Position numbers and translations under genes: made by a program
Source: Steroidobacteraceae bacterium
GTDB taxonomy: Bacteria; Pseudomonadota; Gammaproteobacteria; Steroidobacterales; Steroidobacteraceae
Direction: 5' to 3'
Assembly: GCA_019683695.1 (NCBI GenBank)
Contig: JADGHX010000007.1
Location: forward strand, 1-57,230
Length of the DNA: 57,230 nucleotides
The notes under the pieces: model-generated
Seen by the model: the letters and a program-made list of their open reading frames with translations, nothing else
The model's database searches: none
What the model was told of the DNA's origin: nothing
In this document: piece after piece, positions 2 to 18,093 of the stretch
Layout: each line of letters begins with the position of its first letter
Position numbering within the stretch: position 1 is the first letter of the stretch

Positions 2-1420
2 CGCGTACCAGACCCGCCGGGGCCCCAAACGCCAAACACCGGGCGCCCCGCGCGCGCCCTCGCCGAGGTCCGCACTCCACCGCATTCGATCGAAGCCGAG
101 CAGGCCGTGCTCGGCTCGCTCATGCTCGACACCAGCGCCTGGGATCAGGTGGCCGACATGGTGCGGGCGAAGGATTTCTACCGGCGCGACCACCGGCTCA
201 TCTTCGAGGCCATCGGCACGCTCGCGAGCAATGGCAAGCCGTGCGATGTCGTGATGGTGTCCGAGCAGCTCTCCCGAGTCGGGGAGCTCGAAAACGCCGG
301 CGGCCTCGCATACCTAAGCACGCTCGCGCGCGATACACCCACCGCGGCCAACGTGCGCGCGTATGCAGAGCTGGTGCGTGAGCGCTCGCTTCTGCGCCAG
401 CTCATCGAAGCCGGCACGGAGATCGCCAGCTCCGCCTTCAACACGGAAGGGCACAGCGCGCGCGAGCTGGTGGACCGGGCCGAGCAGAAGGTGTTCGAGA
501 TCGCCGAAGCGGGCTTCGGCGGGCGCGATGGCGCGGTCGCCGTGCGCACCATGCTGCCCGCGCTGATCGACAAGATCGACGAATGGCATTCGAACCCCGA
601 TGCGCTGCGCGGGCTGCCCACGGGCTTCACGGACTTCGACAAGATCACCGGCGGCTTGCGGCCGGGCGATCTCATCATCGTGGCGGGGCGGCCCTCCATG
701 GGCAAGACGACGCTCGCGATCAACATGGCCGAGTACGCGGCCGTGCATCCGGACCGCCGCGCGTCCGTGGCCATCTTCAGCATGGAAATGCCCTCCGAGC
801 AGCTGATGACACGCATGCTGTCCTCGCTCGGGAGCGTGCATCTCGCAAATCTTCGCAGCGGGCGCGTGTCGGATGACGACTGGGTGCGCATCACCAGCGC
901 GACCGCGCAGCTTTCCGACGCCAAGATCTTCATCGACGAGACACCAGGCCTCACCCCCACGGACTTGCGGGCACGTGCACGGCGCGTGAAGCGCGAGCAC
1001 GGTCTGGATCTCGTCGTCGTGGATTACCTGCAGCTCATGCAGGTGCCCGGCACGAAGGAAAACCGCGCGACGGAAATCTCTGAAATCTCCCGCGGCCTGA
1101 AAGCGCTCGCCAAGGAGCTTTCGATTCCCGTGATCGCGCTGTCGCAGCTCAATCGCAGCGTCGAGCAGCGCGAGCACAAGAAGCCCGTGATGTCGGACCT
1201 GCGCGAGTCGGGCGCCATTGAGCAGGACGCGGACATCATCCTGCTCATCTATCGCGAAGAGGTGTACGACAAGAACACGACCAAGAAGGGCATCGCCGAG
1301 ATCGACATCGCCAAGCATCGCAATGGCGAGATCGGCACCTTCCTGCTCACGTTCCAGGGCATGTACTCGCGCTTCGCGAACTACGCGCCGGACTCTTACG
1401 CGGAAGGCATTCTTCGGTGA
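2..1420 (+). CDS. dnaB: Replicative DNA helicase DnaB (5' end outside window)
   Basis: Hexameric 5'-3' helicase that unwinds DNA at the replication fork and interacts with primase and the clamp loader. The frame is open from the window edge, so the true start lies upstream. The visible N-terminal domain contains the typical stretch PPHSIEAEQAVLGSLMLD. The RecA-like domain has Walker A GRPSMGKTT, Walker B LDLVVVDYLQLM, and the conserved SDLRESGAIEQDAD loop near the end. About 472 residues are visible, close to the full family length. The TGA stop overlaps the GTG start of alr by four bases, which suggests translational coupling. The dnaB-alr order is common in this part of the Gammaproteobacteria. 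No intein or insertion is seen. Confidence 0.97.
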   Translation, partial: RVPDPPGPQTPNTGRPARALAEVRTPPHSIEAEQAVLGSLMLDTSAWDQVADMVRAKDFYRRDHRLIFEAIGTLASNGKPCDVVMVSEQLSRVGELENAGGLAYLSTLARDTPTAANVRAYAELVRERSLLRQLIEAGTEIASSAFNTEGHSARELVDRAEQKVFEIAEAGFGGRDGAVAVRTMLPALIDKIDEWHSNPDALRGLPTGFTDFDKITGGLRPGDLIIVAGRPSMGKTTLAINMAEYAAVHPDRRASVAIFSMEMPSEQLMTRMLSSLGSVHLANLRSGRVSDDDWVRITSATAQLSDAKIFIDETPGLTPTDLRARARRVKREHGLDLVVVDYLQLMQVPGTKENRATEISEISRGLKALAKELSIPVIALSQLNRSVEQREHKKPVMSDLRESGAIEQDADIILLIYREEVYDKNTTKKGIAEIDIAKHRNGEIGTFLLTFQGMYSRFANYAPDSYAEGILR

Positions 1421-2493
1421 ACAGGCTCATCCGGGCCGTGATTGACACGCGGGCCCTGCGAAGCAACCTGGCAGCGGTGCGCGCGCGTGCGCCGGGCGCA
1501 CAGGTGATGGCGGTCGTGAAGGCAAACGCGTACGGACACGGCCTCGTGCCCACGGCGCTCGCGCTCGCCGATGCGGATGCCTTCGCCGTTGCGCGGCTTG
1601 AAGAGGGGCTCGCACTGAGGGCCTCGGGCGTGACGAAGGCGATCGTGTTGCTCGAAGGCGTATTCAGCAGCGAGCAACTCATGGAAGCCGCACGGCACGG
1701 CTTCGATATCGTCGTGCACGACCCGATGCAGATCGATCTGCTCGAGGCGTTCTCGGGGCAGCACCGCTTTGTCGTGTGGCTGAAGATCGATACGGGCATG
1801 AACCGGCTCGGGTTCCGGCCCGCGGATTTCCCCATCGCGCTCGCGCGAGTGCGGGCCCTGATTCCCGCGCCGCTCGAGATTCGGGTGCTCACGCATCTGG
1901 CGCGCGCGGACGATCGCGACGAGGCGGGCAATCGCGAGCAGATTGCCCGGTTCAATGCCGCCGTGGGCACACTGGACTGCGCCACCAGCATTGCGAACTC
2001 CGCTGGCGTGCTGAGCGGTGCGGGCATTCATGCGGACTGGGTACGGCCGGGGCTTGCGTTGTACGGCGTATCGCCGTTCGCGGACCAGACCGCGCGGGAT
2101 CTGGGGTTGCAACCGGTGATGGCGCTGGAGAGCCGTGTGCTTACCGTCCGGCACGTGCCCAAGGGCGAGACGGTAGGGTACGGGGGCGTCTGGCGCGCAC
2201 CGAAGGATTCTTCGATCGCCATCGTTGCCGCCGGGTACGGCGATGGTCTGCCGCGTAACCTGCCAAGCGATACACCTGTGCTCATCGGCGGCAAGCGAGC
2301 GCCCGTCGCCGGCCGAGTCTCCATGGACATGATCGCGGTGGATGTCTCCGGTCTTCCGCCGGTGCGGGTGGGCGACCCGGTGACGCTCTGGGGCGAGGGC
2401 CTGCCCGTGGAGGAAATCGCGCGGCACGCCGGCACGATTCCTTACGAGCTGCTGTGCGGCGTGAGCCAGCGGGTGCCGCTGGAGCTGCGCTGA
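1417..2493 (+). CDS. alr: Alanine racemase
   Basis: PLP enzyme that interconverts L- and D-alanine for peptidoglycan. It has 358 residues, normal for the family. The PLP lysine is K35 in VMAVVKANAYGHG, and the opposing catalytic tyrosine is Y255 in GETVGYGG. The N-terminal TIM barrel is followed by the C-terminal beta domain with RVSMDMIAVDVS. The GTG start sits in a GTGA overlap with the dnaB stop. The 3' end is unusual: the last codons, the stop and the following hairpin are repeated in degraded tandem copies downstream (see repeat at 2431-2720). The gene itself looks intact and functional. Confidence 0.95.
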   Translation: MNRLIRAVIDTRALRSNLAAVRARAPGAQVMAVVKANAYGHGLVPTALALADADAFAVARLEEGLALRASGVTKAIVLLEGVFSSEQLMEAARHGFDIVVHDPMQIDLLEAFSGQHRFVVWLKIDTGMNRLGFRPADFPIALARVRALIPAPLEIRVLTHLARADDRDEAGNREQIARFNAAVGTLDCATSIANSAGVLSGAGIHADWVRPGLALYGVSPFADQTARDLGLQPVMALESRVLTVRHVPKGETVGYGGVWRAPKDSSIAIVAAGYGDGLPRNLPSDTPVLIGGKRAPVAGRVSMDMIAVDVSGLPPVRVGDPVTLWGEGLPVEEIARHAGTIPYELLCGVSQRVPLELR

Positions 2494-2720
2494 GTCGCTG
2501 ACCGGCTTCTTGGCCGGCGCCAGCAGGAGAACCCGCTCGCCTTGCTGGCACGATCCCTTATGAGCTGCTGGGCGGTGTGAGCCAGCGGGTGCTGTTGGAC
2601 CTGCACTGAGGCGCTAGCCGCCTTCCTGGCCGGTGCCGACAGGAGAACACCTGCCGTCTTGAGGGAACGATTCCTGACGAGCTGCCCGCGATGAGCCCGT
2701 GCGTGCCGCGCGAATGCGCG
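2431..2720 (+). repeat. Decaying tandem repeat of the alr 3' end
   Basis: Unit 1 (2431-2546) begins in the alr codons for GTIPYELLCGVSQRVPLELR and runs through the stop and about 55 bases of trailer. Unit 2 (2547-2663) repeats all of this at a spacing of 116 bp: read in frame it gives GTIPYELLGGVSQRVLLDLH and a stop, then a recognisable trailer. Unit 3 (from 2664, 117 bp further) is more degraded (GTIPDELPAMSPCVPREC) and fades near 2720. Only the first unit is attached to the functional gene. This is a partial gene duplication by tandem amplification, later mutated; the gradient of decay suggests the last copy is oldest or least constrained. Confidence 0.85.
2502..2517 (+). terminator. Short hairpin after alr
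   Basis: CCGGC, loop TTCTTG, GCCGG, eight bases after the alr stop. It has no U-tract. A weaker version recurs in the second repeat unit (around 2620-2640), so the duplication carried the hairpin along. It may aid termination between convergent alr and the FHA gene, but the stem is only five base pairs. Confidence 0.3.
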
Positions 2721-2742
2721 TCACGCCGCTGACGTCACGCCG

Positions 2743-3450
2743 TCAGCTCTCGAAGAATCCCATCTTCACGCCGGCGAGCTGGATCACGTCGTTGTCGGAG
2801 AGCTTGCGGGCGGTGGCTCCGATCGGCGAGCCGTTGAGCAGCGGAAAATCGTTCTCCTTGCCGCTGTCCACGTGCACGATGAAGTAGCCATCCGCGCGAC
2901 GCGTGATGGCTGCGACCTGCACGCCGGGGCGGCCGAGCGTGGTGAGCGCCTTGTTCAATTCCAGCTCGCGCCCGGCGAACGCACCCGACAACACCTGCAG
3001 CTTGGCCTTCTTGAGCGCCGCGGCGCCTTCGGAGAGCGCCTTGCGTGCCCCGGTAGCCGACAGGGAGTTGGCCGCCACGCTATCCGCCACGGCCCGGATC
3101 TTTTCCACCGGACGCGCGGAGGGCTGGATGACCATCGTTTTCTCGAACTCATCCTGCGCCTCGTCATCCTCCACGAAGCGCAACTGGTGATGACCCACGG
3201 TCACCACGTCCCCGTGCTGGAGCGCGTGCTTCTTGATCAGCTTGCCGTTGACGTATGTGCCATTGGTGCTGTTCAGATCCTCGAGGAACGAATCGTTCAG
3301 GATGTTGATGATGAGCGAGTGATGCCCGCTCACCGCCGGGTTGTCGATGCGGATGTCGTTATCCGGGAGGCGCCCGATGGTGTAGCGCTCCTTGTTCATG
3401 TTGTATTCCGCCAGAACCTGGCTATCCAGGCTCAAGACCAACCTTGCCAT
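2743..3450 (-). CDS. FHA-domain protein with a second, degenerate FHA domain
   Basis: Likely cytoplasmic phosphothreonine-binding adaptor. The 235 residues start at the ATG preceded by GAGG six bases upstream; an upstream in-frame start would overlap the phosphatase gene. The N-terminal FHA domain (about 24-92) has the full motif set: GR at 26-27, S41 and H44, and NSTNG at 60-64. A linker with FEKTM (T105) follows. Residues about 152-232 repeat the fold (LGRPG at 172-176, LLNG, final beta strands) but lack the S..H and NSTNG binding residues, so this copy probably does not bind phosphothreonine. It lies 13 bp behind the PP2C phosphatase, surely in the same operon. No Ser/Thr kinase is in the window. 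Confidence 0.85.
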   Translation of the reverse strand: MARLVLSLDSQVLAEYNMNKERYTIGRLPDNDIRIDNPAVSGHHSLIINILNDSFLEDLNSTNGTYVNGKLIKKHALQHGDVVTVGHHQLRFVEDDEAQDEFEKTMVIQPSARPVEKIRAVADSVAANSLSATGARKALSEGAAALKKAKLQVLSGAFAGRELELNKALTTLGRPGVQVAAITRRADGYFIVHVDSGKENDFPLLNGSPIGATARKLSDNDVIQLAGVKMGFFES

Positions 3451-4288: not shown

Positions 4289-4606
4289 CCGGCGACTCTC
4301 CCCAGACGCATCCTGCAAAGTGTGAGACAGATCACACTGGCGTGCGAACGCAGGCCTGTATCGAGGCGCGGTTCACCCACGCAGACTGTGCCTTGAAATG
4401 TTCTCTCCAACACGGGCCGTGCTGCCTCCCCCGCCCCGAATTGCGATCCCGTACGCTAGCATTGCCCCGCGACAGGTCCGAGTGAGCGTTCACAAACCCC
4501 ACATCCGGACCTGCGCGCCGGCTGCGAATCCTAGCCCAAACGAAGGCAGGAAGGGGTGGGAGCGCAGGCGCTCCACTTTGAGACGTACGCACTCGCAAAG
4601 AGGCTC
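4289..4606. other. Divergent gap between PP2C and radA
   Basis: 318 bp without a gene. Besides the CRP-type site it holds a nested inverted repeat on the radA side: AGGTCCG (4474-4480) pairs with CGGACCT (4506-4512), enclosing GTGA-GCGT-TCAC (4482-4493). In RNA this would form a branched stem in the radA leader. No convincing -35/-10 pair for radA was found. Confidence 0.4.
4319..4338. promoter_or_regulatory. Perfect CRP/Vfr/Clp-type binding site
   Basis: AGTGTGA, six bases GACAGA, then TCACACT: a perfect 7-bp inverted repeat containing both TGTGA and TCACA half sites of the CRP consensus at exact spacing. Its centre lies about 40 bp upstream of the phosphatase start and 278 bp from radA, so the PP2C-FHA operon is the likely target. 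The regulator could be a cAMP-CRP/Vfr protein or a c-di-GMP-responsive Clp protein. Whether it activates or represses cannot be read here. Confidence 0.7.
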
Positions 4607-5974
4607 ATGGCTCGTACCAGCCCGGTTTTCGTCTGCTCCGAATGCTCGGGCGAGACGCTCAAATGGCAAGGGCAGTGCCCGCACTGCTCGGCGTGGAACT
4701 CGCTCGAGCAGCGTGCGCAAACGCGCCCGGCCGGCAAGGGTACACGTGCGGCCGCACCACGCAGCCTGCAACACGAGATCACAGCCGGCGCCGAGACGAG
4801 GCTTGGCAGCGGCGCGGCCGAGCTGGATCGCGTGCTGGGGGGTGGCATCGTTCCCGGGTCGGTCACGCTGCTTGGCGGCGATCCGGGCATCGGCAAGTCC
4901 ACACTGCTTCTGCAGGTGGCCGCGCATGTGGCGGCTTCCCAGCCGGTGCTGTACGCGAGTGGGGAAGAGTCCGTCGCCCAGGTGAGCGCGCGAGCGCGCC
5001 GCCTGAATGTCGCGTCCGTCAAGCTGGATCTCGTCACGGAGAACGATCTCGACGCCATTCTTCAGGTGGCCACCGAACGCAAGGCGGCCTTGGTCGTGGT
5101 GGACTCGATCCAGACGGTGCAGCTCGGCAGCATTTCGGCGAGCGCGGGTGCCGTTACGCAGCTCCGCGAGTGCACGGCTGCGCTGGTGCGGTTCGCAAAG
5201 GAGACGGGCACCGCGGTGATGCTCATCGGGCACGTGACGAAGGAGGGGGCGATCGCCGGGCCCCGCGTGCTGGAGCATCTCGTGGATACGGTGCTCTATT
5301 TCGAAAGCGAAGCGAGCAGCCGCTTCCGCATCGTGCGAGCGACGAAGAATCGCTTCGGGGCGGTGAACGAGCTGGCGTTCTTTGCCATGACGGAAGGCGG
5401 GCTGCGTGAGATCCGCAACCCTTCCGCGATCTTTCTGGCGCGTGCGCCGGAGCCTGCGCCCGGCAGCGTCGTCACGGTCACGCGTGAGGGTGGGCGGCCT
5501 CTGCTGATCGAATTGCAGGCGCTCGTGGACCGGATGCGCTTCGGCGCGCCCCGGCGCATCGCCCAGGGGCTCGATTCGAATCGCGTGGCCATGCTGCTGG
5601 CGGTGCTCAACCGGCATGGGGGTGTATCGCTTCAGGAGCACGACGTGTTCGTCAACGCCGTGGGGGGTATTCAGATCAGCGAAACGGCGTGGGACCTGCC
5701 GGTAGTGCTGGCGCTGGCCTCGAGCCTCAAGGATCGGGCGCTGGATCAGGGGATCGTGGCGTTCGGCGAGATCGGGCTCACGGGGGAAGTGCGGCCGGTG
5801 GCGTATGGCGAGGAGCGCATTCGGGAGGCGCAGAAGCAGGGGTTCCGGGTAGCGTTGGTTCCCCGGGAGAATGCGCCGCGCAAGCCTGTGGAGGGGTTGC
5901 GTGTTCTTGCGGTGTCCCGCGTGGATGAAGCCCTGAAGGCCGTGTTTGCGGCCGATGTGGAGCGCGGTGCGTAG
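4607..5974 (+). CDS. radA: DNA repair protein RadA
   Basis: RecA-like ATPase/helicase that drives branch migration during recombinational repair. It has 455 residues. The N-terminal zinc finger has C10, C13, C24 and C27. The ATPase domain has Walker A GGDPGIGKS near residue 90 and the RadA signature KNRFG near residue 247. The C-terminal third is the Lon-protease-like domain (GGVSLQEHDVFVNAVGGI). The ATG at 4607 is chosen because MARTSPVFVC matches the family N-terminus and AGAGG lies three bases upstream; an upstream GTG would add 17 atypical residues. A degraded copy of its last coding segment lies downstream. Confidence 0.95.
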   Translation: MARTSPVFVCSECSGETLKWQGQCPHCSAWNSLEQRAQTRPAGKGTRAAAPRSLQHEITAGAETRLGSGAAELDRVLGGGIVPGSVTLLGGDPGIGKSTLLLQVAAHVAASQPVLYASGEESVAQVSARARRLNVASVKLDLVTENDLDAILQVATERKAALVVVDSIQTVQLGSISASAGAVTQLRECTAALVRFAKETGTAVMLIGHVTKEGAIAGPRVLEHLVDTVLYFESEASSRFRIVRATKNRFGAVNELAFFAMTEGGLREIRNPSAIFLARAPEPAPGSVVTVTREGGRPLLIELQALVDRMRFGAPRRIAQGLDSNRVAMLLAVLNRHGGVSLQEHDVFVNAVGGIQISETAWDLPVVLALASSLKDRALDQGIVAFGEIGLTGEVRPVAYGEERIREAQKQGFRVALVPRENAPRKPVEGLRVLAVSRVDEALKAVFAADVERGA

Positions 5975-6130
5975 GAGCGCTTTTGCGTCTCGAAGGTGCT
6001 CCATTGGCGGTGAGTTCCCGTGGGATTCGGGAGTTGCCGGATCGTTCCGCACGTTCTTGTTGGTGCGGCGTTGAGGGCCGTGTTTGAGTTCGTGATTGAG
6101 CTTGGCGCGTAGGAGCGCGTCCGACTCGCG
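5850..6130 (+). repeat. Degraded duplication of the radA 3' end
   Basis: The last codons of radA, ending in GCG TAG GAGCGC (5972-5980), recur 138 bp downstream (6110-6118). The bases before it read, in frame, ALRAVFEFVIELGA and a stop, matching the authentic ALKAVFAADVERGA. Similarity continues past both stops (CTCGAAGGTGCT against CTCGCGAAAGAGCT). Upstream there are further matching patches (GTTCCCC-GGGA at 5858 and GTTCCC-GTGGGA at 6014; CGTTCTTG near 6052) separated by small deletions. This resembles the alr case but is more eroded. Confidence 0.65.
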
Positions 6131-6158
6131 AAAGAGCTGGGCGGGCGGCGCGTAGCGA

Positions 6159-7439
6159 TCAGGCGGCGGCGGTGTCGGCGATGGGGGTGACGCGCACGGT
6201 GCGGATCGTGTTGTCGCCGGTCTGGAGCACTTCGAACTGGTATTCGCCGACGCGCATGGTTGCGCCGGGTTCGGGGATCGTTTCGAGGCGCTCGAGCAGA
6301 AGGCCGTTCAGGGTCTTCGGGCCGTCGGTGGGGAGCTGCCACTGCAGCGCGCGGTTGATGGCGCGGATTGTGGCGCTGGCATTCACGATGTAAACGCCCG
6401 GCTTTTCGGTGTGGATGTCCTTGTGCGTGACGGTTGCGGGGTCGCTGGTGAACTCGCCCACGATCTCTTCGAGGATGTCCTCGAGTGTGACGAGCCCTTC
6501 GATATCGCCGTACTCGTTCACCACGAATGCGAGGCGGCGCCGATTGCGCTGGAAATTCGAGAGCTGCACGTTGAGCGGCGTGCCTTCCGGAACGAAGTAG
6601 GGCTCGCGGCTGCGCGCGATTTCAATCAGCCGCTCCCGGGTGAGGGTGCCGCGCGCCAGCTCGTGCGCCACGCGCTTCATGTGCAGGATGCCGAGGCAGT
6701 TGTCGAGCTCCGTGTCATACACCGGCAGGCGCGTGTGCGGCGTCTGTCGCAGCTGGTCGAGCAGCTCTTCCCAGTTCTCGCCGATGTCGATCCCGGCGAT
6801 CTCCTGACGGGGAATCATGATGTCGTTCACGGTGACGCTGCCCAGATCCAGAATCGACAGCAGCATTTGGCGGTGTCGCTGCGGAATCATCGGTCCGGCT
6901 TCGGCAACCACCGTGCGTAGCTCTTCCGTGCTCAGCGCCTGATCTGCACGCGTGGTCTTCACCACGCCGAACACGCGCAGCAGCGAGTACGCCATTTTGT
7001 TCGTCACCCACAGCAGCGGACGTGCAATGGCCACGAGCACCCGATAGATGTACGACGCGCTGAGCGCGACCGGCTCCGGATGAGTGGCCGCATAGATCTT
7101 CGGCGCCAGCTCGCAGAACACGATCATCACGACCGTGAGCACGAACCCCACGACCGGCACTGCATACGGGTGGCCCGTGCGCTGGGCAAGGATGGTTGCC
7201 ACGGCCGATGCGAAAACGCTCGCGGCGGCGAGGATCACGAGATTGGCGCCGAGCCAGTCATCCGGCTTCTGGAGCAGCTTCTCCAACACCTTCGCGGAGC
7301 GCAGCCCGCCCTGTGCGCGCGTGCGGATGCGATATCGGTTCACCGAGAGCATCGCCACCTCCGTGCCGGAGGAGAAGGCGATCACCACGAGCAGCACGAG
7401 CAGCGCAATGAGCAGTATCGCAGTTGGAGCATCGTTCAA
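6159..7439 (-). CDS. CNNM/HlyC-CorC family membrane protein (DUF21, CBS pair, CorC_HlyC)
   Basis: Inner-membrane protein of the CorB/CNNM type, implicated in Mg2+/Co2+ transport in relatives. The DUF21 domain begins with the hydrophobic stretch after LNDAP and continues through about residue 175. A CBS pair (about 195-320; starts VTVNDIMIPRQEIAGIDI) follows, and then the C-terminal CorC_HlyC domain (about 335-420). The TTG at 7439 is chosen because GAGGA lies eight bases upstream and transmembrane helix 1 starts directly after it. A longer frame to 7556 adds 39 Arg/Ser-rich residues unlike the family. With the TTG start the length is 426 residues, which is normal. It converges on radA. Confidence 0.85.
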   Translation of the reverse strand: MNDAPTAILLIALLVLLVVIAFSSGTEVAMLSVNRYRIRTRAQGGLRSAKVLEKLLQKPDDWLGANLVILAAASVFASAVATILAQRTGHPYAVPVVGFVLTVVMIVFCELAPKIYAATHPEPVALSASYIYRVLVAIARPLLWVTNKMAYSLLRVFGVVKTTRADQALSTEELRTVVAEAGPMIPQRHRQMLLSILDLGSVTVNDIMIPRQEIAGIDIGENWEELLDQLRQTPHTRLPVYDTELDNCLGILHMKRVAHELARGTLTRERLIEIARSREPYFVPEGTPLNVQLSNFQRNRRRLAFVVNEYGDIEGLVTLEDILEEIVGEFTSDPATVTHKDIHTEKPGVYIVNASATIRAINRALQWQLPTDGPKTLNGLLLERLETIPEPGATMRVGEYQFEVLQTGDNTIRTVRVTPIADTAAA

Positions 7440-9555: not shown

Positions 9556-9810
9556 ATGGTCACTATTCGCCTCACCCGGCGCGGGGCTACGAATCAGCCC
9601 TTCTATCACGTCGTCGTCACGGACAGCCGCAAGCGGCAGGGCGGCGCCAGTCTCGAGCAGGTGGGCTTCTTCAACCCCATCGCCCGCAAGGGCGAACCGA
9701 AGCTGAAGCTCGATCTCGCCCGCATCGATTACTGGGTGAGCAAGGGCGCGCAGCAGTCCGATCGCGTTCGCTCGCTGGTGCGCGACTATCGCAAGCAGGC
9801 CACGGCCTGA
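9556..9810 (+). CDS. rpsP: 30S ribosomal protein S16
   Basis: Small-subunit protein needed for 30S assembly. It has 84 residues, a typical length, beginning [20 protein letters not shown] with the conserved strands and the GFFNP motif. The ATG at 9556 matches the family N-terminus exactly; any upstream start would add unrelated sequence. It is the first gene of rpsP-rimM-trmD-rplS. The spacing to rimM is 43 bp. Confidence 0.97.
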
Positions 9811-9853
9811 AGACAAGCCTGCGAGCCGGCATGCCGGTCAGCGCTTCCTGCCC

Positions 9854-10516
9854 GTGGCGCCGAAGGACACGCTCGAGCTCGGACGCATTGGCAGCCCCTA
9901 CGGCATCAAGGGCTGGGTCCACGTTCGGTCGTTCACGGATCCGCCCGGCCGTTTGCTGAAGTGCCGGGAGTGGATTCTCGAGGGCGGGCGCCTGCGCGGC
10001 TTCACACCCGGCGCGGTGCCCACTGAGCAACCGCGCGGCTCGGGCAGAGAAGCGCAGCACCCGGGGCAGCGTGAGGGCGATGCGGTTGTCGAGAGAACGG
10101 CGGCCGGTGAGCGCCTGACGCTGAGGCTGGTTGAAGGTCGCCCGCAGGGTGCGGGGTTCGTCGCCCGCCTCGAAGGCATCACGGATCGGGATGCGGCACA
10201 GCGCCTCCAGGGCGCCCGCATCAGCGTATTGCGCAGCGCGCTGCCGAAGCTGCGCCGAAATCAGTTTTATCAGGCGGACCTGATCGGCCTGGGTGTGGCG
10301 AACGTTGAAGGTGCGGAGCTCGGCAGGGTGGCGCACTTTGTGGAGACGCCCGGCGGCTCCGTCATGGTGGTGCGCGGAGACTCGGGCCGCGAGCACTGGG
10401 TGCCGGCGACGAAGACGCACCTGGTGAAGGTGGATCTGGAGGCCGGCCGCATCACGGTGGACTGGCCCGCGGATCTGGAATCGTCCGGGTCCGAAGACAC
10501 GCCGGAAGGCGAGTAA
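9854..10516 (+). CDS. rimM: 16S rRNA processing protein RimM, with an insertion
   Basis: Assembly factor that binds S19 and matures the 3' domain of 16S rRNA. The N-terminal RimM barrel starts LELGRIGSPYGIKGWVHVRSF, and the C-terminal PRC-barrel contains FYQADLIGL and HWVPATKTHLV. At 220 residues it is about 40-50 longer than usual. The excess is a hydrophilic stretch around residues 53-90 (TPGAVPTEQPRGSGREAQHP and onward) within the first barrel. GTG start. It belongs to the rpsP operon, with 13 bp between its stop and trmD. Confidence 0.93.
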   Translation: MAPKDTLELGRIGSPYGIKGWVHVRSFTDPPGRLLKCREWILEGGRLRGFTPGAVPTEQPRGSGREAQHPGQREGDAVVERTAAGERLTLRLVEGRPQGAGFVARLEGITDRDAAQRLQGARISVLRSALPKLRRNQFYQADLIGLGVANVEGAELGRVAHFVETPGGSVMVVRGDSGREHWVPATKTHLVKVDLEAGRITVDWPADLESSGSEDTPEGE

Positions 10517-10529
10517 GGGAGCGGAAGGG

Positions 10530-11288
10530 GTGCACGTCGAAGTCGTCACGCTCTTCCCGGAGATGATTGAAGGCGCACTGCGCTTCGGCGTGGTGGGCCG
10601 TGCCGTCGAGCGGGGCGTGCTCACCGTCGGAACCGAGGATCCGCGGGCGCACACGCACGACGTGCACAAGACGGTGGACGACCGCCCGTATGGCGGCGGC
10701 CCCGGCATGGTGCTGAAGCCCGAGCCGATGCTCGCGGCCATTCGCGCGGCGCAGGCGCGCCTGCCCGGCGGATGCCCGAGGATCGGCCTGTCGGCGCAGG
10801 GTGAGGTGCTCGATCAGGCCCTCGTGCGGGAGCTCGCGGGGCTGCCGGGATTCCTGCTCGTAGCGGGTCGCTACGAGGGACTGGACGAGCGGGTGATCGA
10901 GCTGGGCGTGGATCGCGAGCTGTCCATCGGGGATTACATCCTCTCGGGCGGCGAGCTGGCCGCCCTGGTGGTGATCGATGCCGCCGCGCGGCTGCTGCCC
11001 GGCGTGCTGGGCGATGAGCGCTCGAGCGTGGAAGAGTCGTTCGCGGAAGGGCTGCTGGACTGGCCGCACTACACACGGCCCGAGGTGTTCGAGGGTCGCG
11101 GGGTGCCGCAAGTGCTATTGTCTGGCAACCACGCGGACATCCGCCGCTGGCGCCTGCAGCAGGCCGTTGCACGCACATGGCAGCGTCGGCCGGACCTGAT
11201 TGCGAAGCACGGGCTCTCCGCCGAAGCGAGCCGGCTGCTGAACGAATTTCTCGCAACGCGCGCGGCGCGCGGCGAAACGGACGAGTGA
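10530..11288 (+). CDS. trmD: tRNA (guanine-37-N1)-methyltransferase TrmD
   Basis: SAM-dependent enzyme that makes m1G37 in tRNAs and prevents +1 frameshifting. The 252 residues show the trefoil-knot SPOUT motifs: [23 protein letters not shown] and [14 protein letters not shown]. The N-terminus [11 protein letters not shown] is typical. GTG start with AGGGAG eight bases upstream. It ends ten bases before rplS, whose Shine-Dalgarno overlaps its stop. Confidence 0.97.
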
Positions 11289-14997: not shown

Positions 14998-16029
<1,032 letters not shown>

Positions 16030-16047
16030 CTCAACCCCTCCGGGCCT

Positions 16048-17238
16048 TCAGGATTTCAGGATGCCGAGCTCGCGACCGGCGGTGGTGAACGCTTCCAGGG
16101 CGCGATCCAGCTGCGCTCGGGTGACGGCGGCGGACATTTGCGTGCGGATGCGGGCCTGACCCTTCGGCACCACCGGGTAGGAGAAGCCGATCACATAGAT
16201 GCCCAGCTCGAGCAGCCGATTCGCCATGCGCGTGGCGAGGACGGCATCGCCGATCATGACGGGGATGATGGGGTGCTCGCCCGGCTTGAGATCGAAGCCG
16301 GCGCGCTCGAGGCCGGCGCGGAAGTACTGCGTGTTCTCGAAGAGCCGCTTGCGCAGGTCCGGCGAATGCTCCACCAGATCCAGCACGCGCAGGCTCACCG
16401 CCGCGACCAGCGGCGGGATGCTGTTCGAGAAAAGATACGGCCGCGATCGCTGCCGCAGCCACTCGATGATGGGCTTGCGCGCGGAGACATACCCGCCCGT
16501 ACCGCCGCCCAGCGCCTTGCCGAGCGTGCCGGTGAGGATATCCACGCGGCCCATGACGCCGCAGTGCTCGTGCGTGCCGCGGCCGTTCGCGCCCATGAAG
16601 CCCGTGGCATGGGAGTCGTCTACCATCACGAGCGCGTCGTACTTCGCGGCCAGGTCGCAGATGGCGGGCAGGTTGGCGACGAAGCCGTCCATCGAGAACA
16701 CGCCATCGGTTGCAATGAGCCGCGTACGGGCTCCGGCGGCCTGCTTGAGGCAGCTTTCGAGCTCGCCCATGTCGTTGTTGGCGTACCGGAAGCGCTGCGC
16801 CTTGCAGAGGCGGATGCCGTCGATGATGCTGGCGTGGTTGAGCGCATCGGAAATCACCGCATCCCGCTCATCCAGCAGCGTTTCGAACAGGCCGCCGTTC
16901 GCATCGAAGCACGAGGAGTACAGAATGGTGTCCTCCGTGCCGAGAAAGCGACTGAGCTGCTCTTCGAGCTGCTTGTGAACGCTCTGCGTGCCGCAGATGA
17001 AACGCACGGACGCCATGCCGTAGCCGAACCGGTCCAATGCGCGATGTGCGGCTTCCCGCACAGCGGGGTGGTTCGCGAGGCCGAGATAATTGTTGGCGCA
17101 GAGGTTGATGACATCCCGCTCGCCGGTGCGGACGAGGCCACCCTGTGGGGTGGTGAGCACGCGCTCGGTCTTGTAAAGGCCCTGTTCGCGAAGCCCGGCG
17201 AGCTCCGCATTCAGGCGATCGAGGAAGGAAGTGTTCAT
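16048..17238 (-). CDS. kbl: Glycine C-acetyltransferase (2-amino-3-ketobutyrate CoA ligase)
   Basis: PLP enzyme of the alpha-oxoamine synthase family that makes glycine and acetyl-CoA from the Tdh product. It has 396 residues. The PLP lysine lies in [14 protein letters not shown]; other signatures are [11 protein letters not shown] and [13 protein letters not shown] start. No Shine-Dalgarno is visible; instead a perfect TATAAT ends only six bases before the ATG (see promoter), so the message may start at or near the start codon. Confidence 0.95.
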
Positions 17239-17244
17239 TTGTAA

Positions 17245-17252
17245 ATTATACT
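17245..17252. promoter_or_regulatory. Overlapping divergent -10 boxes (kbl and yhhQ)
   Basis: ATTATACT: the minus strand reads TATAAT (17250-17245) for kbl-tdh, ending six bases before its ATG; the plus strand reads TATACT (17247-17252), facing the transporter. The two promoters would compete for the same DNA. The -35 regions are weak on both sides (CCCTTG at 17-bp spacing for kbl). The plus-strand leader carries a 7-bp hairpin CGCGCGG/CCGCGCG at 17277-17296. Confidence 0.5.
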
Positions 17253-17328
17253 CTCAGGTAGGTTTCCCAAGGGGGTCGCGCGGGCGATTCCGCGCGGGTG
17301 TGTAGCGACAGAGCATGAGAGGTCTCGT

Positions 17329-18093
17329 CTGAACATCATCGACCAGAAACCCACCCGGCTTTTCATCGCGCTCACCGGTTTCTTCCTGACGAATGCGCTC
17401 ATGGCCGAGTTCGTCGGAGTGAAGATCTTTTCCCTCGAAGCCACCCTGGGTGCCGACCCGGTGCACTGGAGCCTCTTCGGCATCGAGGGCACGCTCACAT
17501 TCACCGCGGGCGTGCTCACCTGGCCGTTCGTCTTCATTCTGACGGACGTCATCAACGAGTACTTCGGCATGCGCGGCGTCCGGTTCATCTCCTGGGTTGC
17601 CGTAGTCTTCATCGCGTTTGCCTTCTTCACAGCTTATGTCGCCATTGGGCTGGCGCCAGCAGATTTCTGGGTCAGCTCGAACGCGGCGTTGGGCGTACCG
17701 GATGTCCAGCGGGCCTATGCACTCATTTTCGGGCAGGGGCTCTGGACCATCGGGGGCTCGATCGTGGCTTTCCTCCTGGGGCAGTTGGTGGACGTGCTCG
17801 TGTTCCATCGCATCCGGCGGCTGACGGGAGAGCGGTTCGTCTGGCTGCGGGCGACCGGCTCCACGGCCGTGTCTCAGCTGCTGGATAGCTTCGTGGTGCT
17901 GTACATCGCGTTCGTCATCGGGCCTCAGCGCTGGCCTGTGGCGCAGTTCCTGGCCGTGGGAACCGTGAACTACACCTACAAGATGGCCGCGGCGGTGGCA
18001 CTCATTCCGTTGCTCTACCTCATGCGACGACTCATCCAGTCCTATCTTGGCGCACCCGTGGCCGCCGCGCTGCGCGAAGAGGCAGCGCGCTAA
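17329..18093 (+). CDS. yhhQ: Queuosine precursor transporter, YhhQ/VUT family (probable CTG start)
   Basis: Inner-membrane protein that imports queuosine precursors (preQ0/preQ1 in E. coli YhhQ). With a start at 17329 it has 254 residues and about six membrane segments; the conserved family start KPTRLFIALTGFFLTNALMA and EFVGVKIFSLE is intact. The frame is open back to a TAA at 17242, but no ATG, GTG or TTG occurs before the ATG at 17401. That ATG lies inside helix 1 and cannot be the true start. CTG at 17329 follows GAGAGG by six bases and gives MNIIDQKPTRLF. The function call is firm; the CTG start is inferred. Confidence 0.88.
   Translation: MNIIDQKPTRLFIALTGFFLTNALMAEFVGVKIFSLEATLGADPVHWSLFGIEGTLTFTAGVLTWPFVFILTDVINEYFGMRGVRFISWVAVVFIAFAFFTAYVAIGLAPADFWVSSNAALGVPDVQRAYALIFGQGLWTIGGSIVAFLLGQLVDVLVFHRIRRLTGERFVWLRATGSTAVSQLLDSFVVLYIAFVIGPQRWPVAQFLAVGTVNYTYKMAAAVALIPLLYLMRRLIQSYLGAPVAAALREEAAR

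Follow-up and report, generated by a model that had tools for sequence, protein, structure and literature searches.

Tandem duplication of gene ends at convergent gaps in a Steroidobacteraceae genome, with radA and alr as decayed examples

Introduction

Short tandem duplications that arise by misalignment during replication are a general class of bacterial mutation. Bacterial intergenic minisatellites (VNTR/MIRU type) consist for the most part of dispersed families or polymorphic arrays. De novo structural variants can be observed directly in E. coli mutation-accumulation lines; in the available portion of that report, short reads gave no true-positive tandem duplication in the wild type and one in the mutS-deletion lines, and long reads gave none in either (PMC10292909). 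A literature search found no account of duplicated gene ends at convergent genes in bacteria in the portions of the sources available, and this absence is weak evidence of novelty.

In our study, the window (the whole analysed stretch of DNA, 57,230 nucleotides) was one contig of a 5.18-Mb genome of a Steroidobacteraceae bacterium, which was assembled in 312 contigs. Two genes of the window, radA and alr, were found to be followed by copies of their own 3' ends, and both were compared with the gaps of the same genome and with related loci.

Materials and Methods

The sample of the own genome contained 1,253,711 bases in 94 stretches (24% of the genome), with seven small contigs reading as N omitted. 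Genes were called with a home-made hexamer caller, not a standard program, and the coding fraction was 85%. Gaps of 60–1,500 bp were scanned for repeats together with 150 bp flanks. Repeats that matched elsewhere in the sample were excluded by hand; these were members of a dispersed family of about 350 bp, tRNA paralogues and other matched repeats. The gap L160 was also excluded because of a family copy in it, though no other match was found for the copy under test. The gap L154 was relabelled from co-directional to convergent, since the gene first called there ran antisense to a genuine FAD oxidoreductase gene. The other samples were G009, G021, the relatives' loci and betaproteobacterial loci. 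The relatives were 53 related loci (L032–L084, among the matches listed), none of the same genus, which precluded close polarisation.

Results

The 3' end of radA and its duplicate

The radA region of the window contained the following features.
4556..5974, + strand: radA (sms), an open reading frame with Pfam AAA_25, ChlI and Zn_ribbon; the source copy is formed by its final ~90 bases
5885..6000, + strand: radA repeat copy 1 (3' end with the stop codon and the next 26 bases), aligned with gaps to 6017–6138
6017..6138, + strand: radA repeat copy 2, the decayed duplicate, with a core (6068–6118) at the exact 138-bp spacing
6159..7439, − strand: CNNM/CBS/CorC_HlyC-domain gene (Pfam), the convergent neighbour of radA, with its stop at 6159–6161

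The stop codon of radA (TAG) was located at 5972–5974, and the gap of 184 bp between radA and the CorC_HlyC-type gene contained a second, decayed radA 3' end. The word GCCGTGTTTG at 5939–5948 was found again at 6077–6086, and GCGTAGGAGCGC at 5969–5980 was found again at 6107–6118; the spacing was 138 bp in both cases, equal to 46 codons, and the alignment was ungapped between the two words. The core was identical at 38 of 51 positions (5930–5980 against 6068–6118), the ungapped repeat over 5920–6000 at 55 of 81, and the gapped alignment of 5885–6000 with 6017–6138 at 84 of 112 aligned columns, with 14 gap columns. The match score of 26 was reached by none of 2,000 dinucleotide shuffles (mean 12.8, sd 2.1, maximum 24.5) and by none of 2,884 other intergenic chunks of the same genome (both strands, overlapping), the best of which scored 22. 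The gapped score of 34 was likewise above all of 500 simple shuffles (maximum 30). The preliminary description had stated that the radA ending recurs 138 bp downstream, and had named a match at background level as the result that would speak against it. The exact spacing, the core identity and the scores unmatched by either null confirmed that the radA 3'-end duplication is real. The in-frame pseudo-C-terminus with a stop was also present as described, but another stop intervenes after radA: the frame continued past the gene reads ERFCVSKVLHWR and a stop, followed by VPVGFGSCRIVPHVLVGAALRAVFEFVIELGA and a stop, so that the extra stop separates radA from the pseudo-C-terminus.

The radA repeat was the weakest among the clear gene-end duplication cases, and the pair was absent from the 20 largest of the 29 families given by a general repeat finder over 12 kb. 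No copy of the 3' end of the corC-type gene, comparable to that seen in L170 (below), was found within the first radA unit (score 12.5 against a null of 11.9; 199 of 500 as high).

The alr repeat array

The alr region, with its repeat unit of 116 bp, lies 3.5 kb upstream of the radA repeat and contained two good copies and a weak third.
1417..2493, + strand: alr, alanine racemase (Pfam Ala_racemase_N and _C)
2413..2530, + strand: alr repeat copy A, the gene 3' end and 37 bases past the stop
2529..2646, + strand: alr repeat copy B, the former frame of which reads GTIPYELLGGVSQRVLLDLH and a stop
2649..2744, + strand: alr repeat copy C, weak, with its surest part at 2664–2685
2743..3435, − strand: FHA-domain gene (Pfam FHA), the convergent neighbour of alr

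Copies A and B were identical at 95 of 118 positions at a spacing of 116, which bears out the earlier claim that the end of alr is tandemly duplicated as well and makes it a clearer case than radA. The third copy was marginal: its 22-nt core was 91% identical, the longer alignment was identical at 65 of 90 positions, and its score of 24 was matched by 1 of 500 shuffles. The own C-terminus of alr resembled that of the relatives (GTIPYELLCGVSQRVPLELR), whereas conserved residues were lost in the copy. In both genes the copies were adjacent and direct with a constant spacing (138 bp in radA and 116 bp in alr), as expected of tandem duplication. Both genes were also found to precede a convergent neighbour, as had been claimed, namely the FHA-domain gene for alr and the CNNM/CBS/CorC_HlyC gene for radA.

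Gap lengths in related loci

The convergent pair of radA and the corC-type gene was placed within 2 kb in 48 of the 49 related loci that have both genes, and the alr/FHA pair in 31 of 32. The radA/corC-type gap did not exceed 37 bp in 47 of the 48 loci, many of them overlapping, and 527 bp in one; here it was 184 bp. The alr/FHA gap was 135 bp or less in 29 of the 31 loci, with two exceptions of 750 and 913 bp; here it was 249 bp. The subtraction of one radA unit (184 minus 138) leaves 46 bp and that of two alr units (249 minus 2 × 116) leaves 17 bp, in or near the range of the relatives. Therefore, the two gaps are longer than those of the relatives by about one and two units, respectively, which is about one unit for each extra copy. 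The 17 convergent gaps scanned in the L032–L084 loci contained no match with a score of at least 22.

In many of these relatives the 3' ends of radA and the corC-type gene overlap, the largest plausible overlap being 74 bases. Two of the loci, L065 and L077, come from records titled Klebsiella pneumoniae MAG; their radA is just 65–67% identical to that of the window, their alr/radA surroundings are like those of the relatives of the window, and the titles look wrong.

Other gene-end duplications in the genome

The curated unique gene-end repeats comprised alr and radA of the window and the four cases below.
L170, convergent: gspN-like/UvrD-like, spacing 166, 145/163 identical
L154, convergent: FAD oxidoreductase/CysNC-like, spacing 128, 111/138 identical
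L148, convergent: end of a SnoaL-like gene, spacing 150, 110/137 identical
L157, co-directional: gamma-glutamyltranspeptidase (GGT), spacing 141, 126/145 identical

The units of all six had no match elsewhere in the 1.25-Mb sample. In L170 (2905–3241), the junction between the T2SS protein N-like gene and the UvrD-like helicase/nuclease gene was duplicated entire, with the gap and both gene ends, as a unit longer than the gap should be. L148 was a weak gene-end case; its repeat took in just the final 34 bases of the gene, and the gene end by itself fell short of significance (9 of the 2,882 chunks scored as high).

The units ranged between 116 and 166 bp, and the aligned identities between 75 and 89%. 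The differing units and identities show that the events did not take place in one burst. The differences between gene and copy were nearly equal over the three codon positions (21:19:27, five cases summed, L148 excluded). The orthologous alr ends differed in the ratio 263:210:686 (39 loci; p = 0.009 against the copies) and the orthologous radA ends in the ratio 492:305:1001 (53 loci; p = 0.019 against the copies). The second copies are thus free of coding constraint and drift as non-coding DNA; they are non-coding debris from separate events.

Orientation of the duplications

The first, uncurated scan found repeats in 9/68 convergent, 5/124 divergent and 6/311 co-directional gaps. These counts inflated the effect, much of which was due to the repeats excluded on curation. 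After curation, unique repeats with a score of at least 26 in gaps of at least 60 bp were found in 6/69 convergent, 3/124 divergent and 1/310 co-directional gaps; convergent against divergent gaps alone were not significantly different (p = 0.07). Over all called gaps of the 24% sample, 5 of the 135 convergent ones had a gene-end duplication, compared with 1 of the 821 others (Fisher p = 0.00028). The two window cases had prompted the search; without them the counts were 3/133 against 1/821 (p = 0.0095), without the weak L148 they were 4/134 against 1/821 (p = 0.0017), and without L148 and both window cases they were 2/132 against 1/821 (p = 0.05). Counted per 3' end, the duplications were 6/138 at convergent ends against 1/310 (p = 0.004), and without the window pair 3/134 against 1/310, which was not significant (p = 0.08).

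In the other samples, a gene-end copy was found in none of 223 convergent gaps, 66 of which were long enough for the scan (p = 0.007 against the own genome, all gaps). Among convergent gaps of at least 60 bp the comparison was 5/69 against 0/66 (p = 0.058). The repeats in all gaps pooled, 10/503 in the own genome (curated) and 5/535 in the others (uncurated), were not significantly different (p = 0.20). The repeat found in a convergent gap of the betaproteobacterial L110 was wholly internal to the gap. All convergent gaps of the own genome had a median of 66 bp and a 75th percentile of 259 bp against 75th percentiles of 39–100 bp in the other samples, and gaps of every class were longer in the own genome than in the majority of the other samples. 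The convergent 3' ends showed no underlying set of older, fainter copies, 10 of 138 being at p ≤ 0.05 and 17 of 138 at p ≤ 0.10 in a test the comparison pool of which included some of the tested gaps, costing alr and L157 one rank.

The preliminary description had argued for a recurrent mechanism, such as collision or slippage, rather than one accident, and had named the lack of a genome-wide excess as grounds against it. In the 24% sample, recurrence at convergent ends beyond one accident is supported, although the events are few and the excess weakens on the removal of the window cases and L148; the excess does not establish collision or slippage at convergent ends as its cause.

The scan also brought to light other repeats of the sample. 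The dispersed family is non-coding, up to about 350 bp long and present in seven gaps of the 1.25-Mb sample (L114, L153, L160, L165, L188, L191 and L200); the best matches among its members were 82–93% identical, and a scan of L114, L165 and L200 against Rfam gave no match. L192 contained two CRISPR-like arrays (9725–11229 and 15224–17532) with a period of ~73 bp, the second of which matched CRISPR-DR16 of Rfam, whereas the first has a different 36-bp repeat. Unique tandem repeats with spacings of 157 and 119 were found entirely within the divergent gaps of L165 (11140–11370) and L204 (10790–10990), respectively.

Discussion

The gene-end copies are probably ordinary short tandem duplications, formed by misalignment and retained at convergent ends, where they are harmless. 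In radA, a tandem duplication of ~138 bp would have spanned the gene end, the stop codon and the gap to the convergent neighbour, which was very short at that time. The first copy would have been kept intact by radA and the neighbour left undamaged, while the second, untranslated, may have drifted to about 70–75% identity. Similar independent accidents would have occurred elsewhere in the genome, with units of 116 to 166 bp, presumably through misaligned replication or repair. A unit that exceeds a short gap would necessarily include gene ends; only at convergent ends would this leave both genes intact, with no second promoter, ribosome site or start. We infer that survival, rather than more frequent formation, underlies the bias, because a duplication that exceeds the gap adds no damage at convergent ends.

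Tandem duplications of 116–166 bp in short promoter-free gaps fit the pattern at least as well as collision does. Duplications were also found outside convergent gaps and were rarest in co-directional gaps, where a downstream promoter is expected; for this reason the distribution of the curated repeats over the three classes of gap agrees with survival, and it is compatible with formation too. Simply frequent duplication might be expected to give more in-frame duplications within genes, but the repeats whose two copies both fell in genes numbered 48 over 1.27 Mb of the own genome against 70 over 0.90 Mb of the others (uncurated). No repair defect was found among four genes; mutS, mutL, mfd and recJ were all present above the cut-off, so we found no reason for a raised rate of duplication.

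Convergent ends might instead be mutational hotspots, where opposing transcription or its encounter with a replication fork causes stalling or breakage, and the repair leaves a short tandem duplication of the 3' end. We consider this unlikely, although the predicted excess at convergent ends was found (p = 0.0003), weaker after the removal of the window cases and L148, and the L170 duplication covers the whole junction with both gene ends. Survival alone predicts the same bias; unique repeats internal to the gap were found in three divergent gaps, and the GGT case is co-directional. The other genomes sampled share the gene orientations, yet none of their 223 convergent gaps contained a gene-end copy. 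No terminator-like site was found in either window gap, which would permit readthrough, and Rfam gave no known RNA there; the terminator scan used a crude consensus that gave no excess anywhere. A process of this lineage that repeatedly copies 115–165 bp of 3' ends at convergent junctions, is tied to the meeting of transcription and slowly lengthens the gaps is, if anything, slightly harder to credit. Such a process, if real, would provide material from which new gene tails and 3' RNAs could arise.

It is very improbable that the genes were replaced by those of a related strain or species, or that the assembly joined two strains, with the downstream copy as the former 3' end. The 312-contig assembly makes chimeras possible, and the copies differ by 11–25% in aligned columns. 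However, these differences are not mainly at third codon positions, unlike those of orthologues, and L170 has intergenic DNA and the end of the other gene duplicated too; codon positions and L170 thus disfavour both a chimera and a replaced gene. The alr array, moreover, has a third copy, and the relative-like end belongs to alr itself while conserved residues are missing from the copy.

Chance likeness of the radA end to GC-rich spacer DNA is more improbable still. One of the 2,000 shuffles came near (24.5 against 26) for this weakest of the clear cases; against this, no real intergenic chunk reached the score, the gapped match extends to ~115 bases and the enlargement of the gap is close to that expected.

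Least credible of all is a small dispersed REP-like element with the head GTAGGAGCG, overlapping the radA stop and present once more downstream: the head, the letters of which we take to resemble REP heads of other gammaproteobacteria, was found in the window only twice, at both radA copies, but it occurred just 5 times in 1.25 Mb against a mean of 11.2 for 40 permuted 9-mers, and the many copies expected of such an element were not found, the radA and alr copies having no other match in that sample at E 1e-4 and none in Rfam.

Duplication by misalignment with survival at convergent gaps therefore remains our preferred reading, and the repeats are, overall, a real but modest quirk of a known kind, for which a plainer mechanism than collision suffices. 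The genome allows the fate of short tandem duplications to be read by gene orientation and offers a countable test of whether convergent junctions produce more of them or merely tolerate more. If formation is biased, this would be direct genomic evidence for a transcription-linked duplication process; if survival alone is biased, it would give a simple account of long convergent gaps and of gene-tail debris.

Comparison with the described systems places the repeats nearest to misalignment duplications. Like these, the copies are head-to-tail with units of about 100–170 bp, the first is intact and the second free to decay, and the number of copies reaches two to three in alr. They differ in that the original junctions, with their flanking microhomology, are hidden by divergence, and in their concentration at convergent gene ends. 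Unlike the recurrent cases here, few tandem duplications arose in the E. coli mutation-accumulation lines, in the portion of the report available (PMC10292909). The VNTR/MIRU minisatellites share with them tandem units beside or across gene ends, whereas the units of radA, alr, L148, L154, L157 and L170 belong to no dispersed family within the sample.
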